Shown: piece by piece, positions 46,300 through 48,239 of the stretch
Layout of the letters: the number at the start of each line of letters is the position of its first letter
Numbering within the stretch: position 1 is the stretch's first letter
Source of the DNA: Flavobacteriales bacterium
Lineage (GTDB): Bacteria > Bacteroidota > Bacteroidia > CAIKAF01
Reading direction: 5' to 3'
Assembly (NCBI GenBank): GCA_018401695.1
Contig: JAGYKD010000003.1
Location: 310,001 to 374,000, forward strand
Length of the DNA: 64,000 nucleotides
Notes under the pieces: model-generated
What the model was told of the DNA's origin: nothing
What the model saw: only the letters and a program-made list of their open reading frames with translations
Database searches by the model: none
Translations under genes and position numbers: made by a program

Positions 46300-46817
46300 T
46301 TAAACATATCCTTGCTGCTGCAATGCATCCTCCAACCCTTCACGGAGCAACTGTACTAAATCTTTGTCCATATACTGAGACCGTTGACGCGTTGTGTTTT
46401 CAAGGCGAATTAAGGCACGGACAAATGGAAAGTCCCCTGACGCTTCGGTCAGGACAGGCCGCAGTTTACTGGTTGTAAATGAGGAACTTGAAATTTGGCC
46501 GTAACGCAAAGTCGCCGGCAGAATAGCAGCGCGTCAACGGTCTCATACTCGTATTCATCCGGAATGGAAAGGACTTCTATGGTAGGCAATTCCAGGTGAG
46601 GGTAAAGCGTACGGATTTTCTTGGAGTGTTTATGTTCCATCACCAGCACCAAATCGGCCCAAAGCAAATCCTTTTCCGAGATTTTCCGGTTGCTTTTTGG
46701 GCTTAAGCCTGCGGATCGGATATGAAATCTTGGGTCGTTTTTAAAAAGATATTCAGCGGTTCTGCTGCGTCGTTTGTTTTGGCCGCAGAGGATTAGGAGG
46801 TTTGGTTTGGGGGGCAT
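46300..46817 (-). pseudogene. Low-molecular-weight protein tyrosine phosphatase-like gene interrupted by a MITE
   Basis: The start (ATG at 46817) encodes LLILCGQNKRRSRTAEYLF, a phosphatase P-loop in the small family of about 110 residues, then KISEKDLLWADLVLVMEHKH and IPDEYEY. There the frame enters a 168-bp insertion and ends after 31 foreign residues at 46449. Past the insertion the true end reads YMDKDLVQLLREGLEDAL and stops at 46300. Removing the insertion and one copy of its 5-bp duplication restores a 345-bp frame for 114 residues. The truncated 122-residue product keeps the P-loop, so some activity cannot be excluded. Confidence 0.88.
46372..46549. mobile_element. 168-bp MITE with 15-bp inverted repeats and 5-bp target duplication
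   Basis: The element spans 46377-46544. Ends are GAGACCGTTGACGCG (46377-46391) and its exact complement (46530-46544). ATACT flanks it on both sides (46372-46376, 46545-46549). It carries no transposase frame; a CCTGAC/GTCAGG hairpin lies at 46436-46453. It must be moved by a transposase elsewhere. The parent insertion sequence is not identified. Confidence 0.9.
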
Positions 46818-46852: not shown

Positions 46853-47311
46853 TTACTTATCGTGCAGCAATTTGTTTGGATTTATAATGGGCAAAATAAA
46901 GTTTTGTAGAGCGGTGCCCTGCAATCGGGTCAAAAGAATGCCTCGTGAGGTAGAATAGGTTACCGAGGAAAGGGCATTGGCTAAGGCAGGATTCAATTCA
47001 ATGAACCGGTTCTCCCTGGGTTTTGCCAGGTTGTTCAGACCTTCTACCTGATAAATAAATACCAGGTGAAAATTGCCCGTAGCTTCCTTTTTGTTTAGGT
47101 TTTGACTCTCGGTTCTTATTTCAATCGTGAAATCCGCCTTTACCAATTTCTCGTCAATATTAAATCCTAAATCCAAGGCGTTTTCTACATAATGCCCCAT
47201 AACATGCATCGGTTCAAAGTCCTCGGGCACATCCACCATCCCTTTTACCAATTTGTGTTCAACCATGCTGATATTTTCGGGCTTAAATATGGGTTGGTCT
47301 TTATCCGACAT
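46853..47311 (-). CDS. SecB-like chaperone of a TAC module
   Basis: A 152-residue protein resembling SecB-like chaperones: beta-sheet segments with DFTIEIRTES and FHLVFIYQVEGL, then ALSSVTYSTSRGILLTRLQGTALQNFILPIINP, comparable to the C-terminal helices of SecB. In toxin-antitoxin-chaperone systems such a protein folds and protects the antitoxin. It overlaps the antitoxin gene by 11 bases. The family call is by pattern and context. Confidence 0.75.
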   Translation of the reverse strand: MSDKDQPIFKPENISMVEHKLVKGMVDVPEDFEPMHVMGHYVENALDLGFNIDEKLVKADFTIEIRTESQNLNKKEATGNFHLVFIYQVEGLNNLAKPRENRFIELNPALANALSSVTYSTSRGILLTRLQGTALQNFILPIINPNKLLHDK

Positions 47312-47708
47312 TGTTTACTGAAGTTAATTCATTCGCTTTTTGCCACCGAACCGTCTTTGCTGTTTTTGAAGAGTCTATTTTCTTGTGAACAAAATAGGTA
47401 TGCAGGCTGCGCCTGTAGCTGCTTATAAAATTGGCCTGTGATTTTCGTTTGGACACCTCCAATAAAGGTTCTCCCAGCTCAGCCGATAATTTAGCCAGGG
47501 AACGTAAGGTAAAGTTATGTTCTCCACTCAGCCATTTGGAAATTTCGGAGGGTTGCTTCCCCATTTTTTCTGCAAGTTCCTTTTGGCTGAGGTTTTTCTC
47601 CTTCAACAATTGATGGATGCGAACTACGAGGTCTGCATACCAGTCCACAAATAAGTCAACATCTTCCGGAGTGTTGTCTAGTATTCTTTGAAAAACCTTA
47701 CTTCTCAT
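47301..47708 (-). CDS. XRE-family antitoxin (HigA-like) of a TAC module
   Basis: A 135-residue DNA-binding protein. The helix-turn-helix is at about 37-80 (LSQKELAEKMGKQPSEISKWLSGEHNFTL). The basic C-terminal 45 residues may be the chaperone-addiction tail seen in TAC antitoxins. It begins 12 bases after the putative toxin gene and overlaps the chaperone gene, so all three are one operon. Confidence 0.85.
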   Translation of the reverse strand: MRSKVFQRILDNTPEDVDLFVDWYADLVVRIHQLLKEKNLSQKELAEKMGKQPSEISKWLSGEHNFTLRSLAKLSAELGEPLLEVSKRKSQANFISSYRRSLHTYFVHKKIDSSKTAKTVRWQKANELTSVNNVG

Positions 47709-47720
47709 TTTGCTTGTCTC

Positions 47721-48239
47721 TTAAATGAATATTTCTTTACTGCCGTTGTAATAGAAGAATGATCGGTGATCAGAACCTATCAGAATTTCTTTTCCATTTA
47801 AAGCATCTAATATGCGTTTTGCAAAAAGGTTAGCTTCCTGAAATGCCATGCTTGTTTTTCCTCCTTGGGCGGTAGTGCTTGTTTTCTCACCTCCGTTAAA
47901 TAGAACAACCAAGGTTTCCGAAATCCGCAAACAGTAAAGACGAAGAGGGAAATTGCCGAAATTGATGGAAAGATGCTCCACTTTGTACCTGCCTGAGGGA
48001 GGAAGTGCCTGGGCTGCGTTTTCAAATCTGAAGAAATACTCCAATGCCCCAAATTTATCCCCAATTTCATTGGAAATAAACGTTGCCAATTCTTGGATTG
48101 ACCTTTGGAAAATGATGTGGATTTCATATTTCATGAAAAACTTATCGGTTTCTGAAATGGGGGAGTCTTCCCATCTTACCGTATAGAAGGTGCAAACCTG
48201 TCTTTCGTTATCAAATACCTCAAGAGCAAATGTATTCAC
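47721..48239 (-). CDS. Putative toxin of a TAC module (HigB/RelE-like C-terminal part)
   Basis: A 172-residue protein. Residues about 95-165 (FPLRLYCLRISETLVVLFNGG, then QEANLFAKRILDALNGK) look like the RelE/HigB fold, in which LRLYC..., V.L..G... strands and a C-terminal helix occur. The N-terminal 90 residues (EVFDNERQVCTFYTVRWED) are extra compared with normal HigB of about 100 residues. First gene of the operon, as is usual for HigBA. Toxicity is inferred. Confidence 0.65.
   Translation of the reverse strand: MNTFALEVFDNERQVCTFYTVRWEDSPISETDKFFMKYEIHIIFQRSIQELATFISNEIGDKFGALEYFFRFENAAQALPPSGRYKVEHLSINFGNFPLRLYCLRISETLVVLFNGGEKTSTTAQGGKTSMAFQEANLFAKRILDALNGKEILIGSDHRSFFYYNGSKEIFI

Follow-up and report, generated by a model that had tools for sequence, protein, structure and literature searches.

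Results

The window, by which we mean the whole 64,000-nucleotide stretch of contig JAGYKD010000003.1 (Flavobacteriales bacterium) that was analysed, carries by ORF calling a module of three minus-strand ORFs in the order toxin-antitoxin-chaperone (Table 1). Three closely spaced or overlapping genes had been described here in the first-pass annotation, and they are indeed present, with a gap of 12 bp between the toxin and antitoxin genes and an overlap of 11 bp between the antitoxin and chaperone genes. Dozens of other Bacteroidota have the same three proteins in this order and with this spacing, so the module is not a chance arrangement. Downstream of the module, at 35 bp from the chaperone gene, a 122-aa ORF (46449..46817, minus strand) resembles low-molecular-weight phosphatases (Pfam LMWPc, E 1.5e-5); lacking a relative in the other loci fetched, it was rejected as part of the module.

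Table 1. Features of the module (positions in the window)
Feature	Position	Strand	Description
Toxin gene	48239-47721	-	172 aa, GTG start; predicted RelE/HigB fold, PADLOC PDC-M64B/A family
XRE antitoxin gene	47708-47301	-	135 aa; HTH at residues about 31-84 plus basic 51-aa C-terminal tail
Antitoxin tail-coding part (with stop codon)	47301..47456	-	51 aa; putative chaperone-addiction region
SecB-like chaperone gene	47311-46853	-	152 aa
Operator-like near-palindrome TTCAGTTATAAGTGAA	48235..48250	.	16 bp; overlaps the start codon (GTG) of the toxin gene
Second, weaker operator-like copy TTTACTTAAAAATGAA	48267..48282	.	32 bp further upstream

At the sequence level, only the antitoxin was recognized by Pfam, as an XRE protein (HTH_3, E 2e-13), and its tail is strongly basic (pI 10.8, net charge about +9), in agreement with the initial description of an XRE antitoxin with a basic tail. 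The toxin matched no Pfam model, those of the RelE superfamily included, and NCBIfam gave only a weak RelE/ParE hint (TIGR02683, E 0.16). The chaperone had no Pfam match either, the SecB profile PF02556 missing it, and a profile scan of the window's genome detected no PF02556 SecB. Sequence searches of the PDB returned nothing credible for the module proteins. On the other hand, all three proteins matched the PADLOC models of the system PDC-M64 (toxin, E 1.7e-50; antitoxin, E 5.1e-37; chaperone, E 9.2e-23), which is the sole PADLOC system whose models match the toxin. PDC systems were identified by "guilt by embedding" and are for the most part unvalidated candidates (PMC12988326), and in the literature searched, bioRxiv apart, PDC-M64 was not named and nothing was found beyond the PADLOC models.

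The structure of the toxin was predicted from 57 sequences (pLDDT 89.2). Foldseek alone yielded a weak lead to HigBA of S. pneumoniae (E 0.07), and VIA-align superposed residues 15-150 of the model on S. pneumoniae HigB (Z 10.2) and residues 11-158 on HigB1, the toxin of the M. tuberculosis TAC (Z 9.5). In the VIA-align ranking HigB matches came at the top, followed by toxins of the RelE, YoeB and ParE types, with the ParE toxins below the HigB and RelE RNases. These results bear out the earlier identification of a RelE/HigB-like toxin, and the model indicates a single RelE domain of the HigB/Gp49 type that is too divergent for Pfam. They do not agree with two further suggestions of the first-pass annotation, namely that the protein carries about 90 extra N-terminal residues and that, being unusually long, it may belong to a different toxin class: since the predicted fold already spans residues 15-150, the first 90 or so residues are mainly the front half of the fold and contain no added domain. 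What the protein has in surplus over HigB toxins of about 120 aa is an N-terminal strand (residues 4-10), an insert at about residues 74-95 and a C-terminal end of some 20 residues.

For the chaperone, a model predicted from a 41-sequence alignment (pLDDT 90.1) had the M. tuberculosis TAC chaperone Rv1957 as its best Foldseek match (E 2.9e-6), with SecB next, and VIA-align gave Z 11.2 for SecB and Z 9.9 for Rv1957. The predicted fold is thus that of SecB. The protein had been called SecB-like from the outset, with the proviso that failure to match SecB profiles would argue against the name; the fold upholds the name, while the PF02556 search did fail. We do not consider this failure decisive, because it is outweighed by the structure comparison and because some TAC chaperones fall outside PF02556 (PMC4257090).

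In the family alignment of the toxin, E73, R100, G116 and K119 were near-invariant over 97 distinct rows, R100 being conserved in 95 of 96 letters and K119 in all 95. A weak profile-profile alignment (probability 16%) placed R100 opposite a conserved Arg, and K119 opposite the first Lys of an F-x-K-K motif, of the Gp49 toxins of Bacteroidota. The toxicity of M. tuberculosis HigB1 requires R77 and K95 (PMC9098466), and, as read from the motifs, these residues probably correspond to R100 and K119. The Arg of the ELR motif of HigB toxins has no evident counterpart in this family and, for this reason, RNase activity of the toxin, which we propose by analogy, is graded only as likely. The window's own genome also encodes a Gp49-like toxin of the Pfam type (L117, G000:C1:899563-899823, E 5.3e-22).

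To describe the distribution of the family, 395 Bacteroidota genomes were sampled. Searched with the window toxin, 37 of them gave a match, two of these (G166 and G387, E 3e-4 and 1e-3) lying within ORFs of about 600 aa that are ABC transporters and were discarded; the family profile found matches in 45 genomes. A scan of genome contigs yielded 73 loci, all with Bacteroidota organism titles, the nearest, at 78% identity, being in Mongoliitalea lutea. For collection scans the full family alignment (A1) proved too diverse; viral contigs were scanned with alignments A3 and A2. No relative was found in them or in phage records, a negative that holds for these collections at the sensitivity used. 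One copy lies on a Hymenobacter plasmid, and the copy at L034 is near a topoisomerase-like gene in a possible mobile element. Another plasmid, from Bacteroides thetaiotaomicron, has phage genes (portal, KilA-N, antirepressor) and also carries a toxin-HTH-chaperone set of this family (L036:5986-7328). In a Sphingobacteriales genome (L096:4001-4529) the toxin ORF seems broken, a 97-aa fragment standing beside an intact antitoxin.

Chaperone-bearing relatives often adjoin restriction genes. Genes like hsdM and hsdS lie beside the chaperone-bearing loci L040, L044, L045 and L093, an hsdS-like gene beside L047 and an hsdR-like gene beside L064, both of these loci also chaperone-bearing. In L037 and L043 the module comes after a GmrSD-like gene (the contig of L043 ends before the antitoxin). 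In samples of 43 neighbouring proteins each, type I methyltransferase models matched seven and specificity models six of the proteins next to chaperone-bearing loci, whereas the 25 families listed for chaperone-less loci included no type I restriction model and one PtuA-type match, a contrast that is suggestive, the samples being small and related. The window copy has no adjoining restriction gene among the ORFs read. A conserved 109-aa protein (MMQEVFNEHY...) is encoded after the two-gene modules of Mucilaginibacter (L002, L059, L065 and L067), some of which are near a lantibiotic dehydratase gene.

The length of the antitoxin tail, measured from the end of the HTH, was compared with the presence of the chaperone in 91 distinct rows placed on the toxin tree. 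With a chaperone, the tail had at least 29 aa in 66 of 66 rows and, without it, at most 26 aa in 23 of 25, the exceptions being the chaperone-less L027 and L029, whose tails have 46 and 39 aa. L016 was scored as chaperone-bearing, as it is followed by a SecB-like ORF that was missed by the profile and found by eye. The tree implies about seven switches of chaperone state, at least five of them forced by well-supported branches, and in independent pairs the tail changed in the same direction in 4.3 of five and never in the opposite one, these pairs being too few for a sign test to reach 0.05. The most natural reading of a tail and a chaperone that are kept or lost together is that they bear the signature of chaperone addiction, a phenomenon demonstrated for M. 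tuberculosis HigA1 (PMC5105189, PMC6377645). Most antitoxins of chaperone-bearing loci end in S, G, A, I or V, and such a small or aliphatic terminal residue might mark the protein for degradation.

In most homologues the toxin gene is preceded by a conserved 16-bp palindrome (TTAACTTATAAGTKAA type), which often overlaps the start codon. When no more than one mismatched pair was allowed, palindromes occurred in 97 of 107 upstream regions as compared with about 16 in shuffles (counts that include related and repeated loci), and most of them share one consensus. In the window, TTCAGTTATAAGTGAA is the single exact copy in its genome, and the weaker TTTACTTAAAAATGAA aligned with TTAACTTAAAAGTGAA, which occupies the same place in close relatives. 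By analogy with related systems, the XRE antitoxin would autorepress the operon at this palindrome. A TAnnTTTG box within the start of the toxin gene was weighed as a promoter element and rejected, since the N-terminal codons can explain it and not all groups keep it.

Discussion

The trio is a divergent TAC of the HigBAC type in Bacteroidota, a chromosomal operon that corresponds to the PADLOC candidate PDC-M64. The evidence was computed directly and consists of the folds, the gene order, the tail-chaperone linkage, the conserved palindrome and the restriction-system neighbours of relatives. We put the probability that the module is a TAC with a RelE-fold toxin and a SecB-fold chaperone, as the models predict, at about 0.9. 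The first-pass annotation had also read it as a TAC, and the gene order, the SecB-fold chaperone, the RelE-fold toxin close to HigB, the tailed XRE antitoxin and the linkage of tail and chaperone all sustain that reading.

The closest parallel is the M. tuberculosis TAC (HigB1-HigA1-SecB-TA; Rv1955-1957), with which the module shares the toxin-antitoxin-chaperone order, a toxin of RelE/HigB fold, a C-terminal extension of the antitoxin and the fold of the chaperone, of which Rv1957 is the best Foldseek match. However, sequence comparison of its proteins with solved structures gave no usable similarity, and the toxin is about 45 residues longer than the mycobacterial one (short N-terminal strand, insert and C-terminal end) and shows no evident ELR motif. 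With Gp49-like HigB toxins (PF05973) it has in common the fold and the colinear Arg/Lys motif, although it is longer and is missed by the Pfam model. E. coli HigBAC and CmdTAC follow the same three-gene logic, and their SecB-like chaperone can sense phage proteins (PMC11618068 for CmdTAC; HigBAC as reviewed in PMC11980606); the window module differs in that its host phylum is Bacteroidota and in that a phage trigger is proposed for it by analogy. As for PDC-M64 (A/B/C), its models match all three proteins of the module, and the TAC nature, the folds, the operator and the tail-chaperone linkage were established in this analysis.

We infer a mechanism from these relatives, which are also our source for toxicity, addiction, autorepression and a role in phage defence; RNase activity, tail binding, autorepression, degradation and the phage trigger are modelled on HigBAC, CmdTAC and the M. 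tuberculosis TAC. The RelE-fold toxin would most likely cleave mRNA on the ribosome, and the XRE antitoxin would bind the toxin and repress the operon at the palindrome by the toxin start. The C-terminal tail would destabilise the antitoxin unless the SecB-like chaperone holds it, so that a phage protein, or another unfolded protein, could titrate the chaperone and lead to the degradation of the antitoxin, whereupon the freed toxin would stop translation and the infection would be aborted. We consider this full sequence of events, with its RNase step and its phage trigger, probable, although clearly less secure than the TAC assignment.

The function of the toxin could be different. Both RNases and gyrase poisons occur within the RelE/ParE superfamily (PMC11980606), and the elusive ELR Arg would fit a ParE-like gyrase poison, or some other non-RNase, in place of a ribosome-dependent RNase; yet structural comparison ranks HigB and RelE RNases first and the ParE toxins lower, and K119 and R100 align, in a weak profile alignment, with the conserved Lys and Arg of Gp49, so that we regard this alternative as rather improbable. 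Even less can be said for the idea that the toxin is an ADP-ribosyltransferase, as CmdT is, and the system CmdTAC-like. CmdTAC has the same gene order, a SecB-like third gene and a tailed antitoxin, but RelE-superfamily toxins fill the upper match list of the toxin model, residues 15-150 are taken by the RelE fold, the antitoxin is an XRE protein and in PADLOC the toxin is matched only by PDC-M64 models. An ADP-ribosyltransferase was rejected on the fold, and we give this explanation almost no weight.

A more serious competitor accepts the TAC module and disputes its role, which would be that of a stress-response or stabilising (addiction) element, the chaperone reporting general stress in protein export or folding and not phage infection. 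The solitary position of the window copy among other genes fits this explanation, as does the lack of a detected PF02556 SecB in its genome, and on the Hymenobacter plasmid, the phage-like Bacteroides plasmid and the possible mobile element of L034 addiction would serve the element itself. Against it, relatives adjoin type I restriction and GmrSD genes, and PADLOC classes PDC-M64 as a defence candidate. On balance we think a role outside phage defence unlikely, if well worth bearing in mind, and favour the chaperone-guarded defence outlined above.

Conclusion

These results explain a defence candidate that was catalogued but undescribed, PDC-M64, and bring a large group of Bacteroidota, with proteins that are missed by sequence profiles, into the range of TAC systems. 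It is conceivable, though we advance it tentatively, that PDC-M64 forms a TAC family extending across the Bacteroidota, and that several gains or losses of a tail-plus-chaperone cassette have switched one toxin-antitoxin pair between two states, a chaperone-guarded defence that senses phage and lies next to restriction genes, and a simple two-gene toxin-antitoxin system. The two-gene relatives, whose toxins are about 45% identical to that of the window, make the evolution of chaperone addiction testable by swaps of tail and chaperone.
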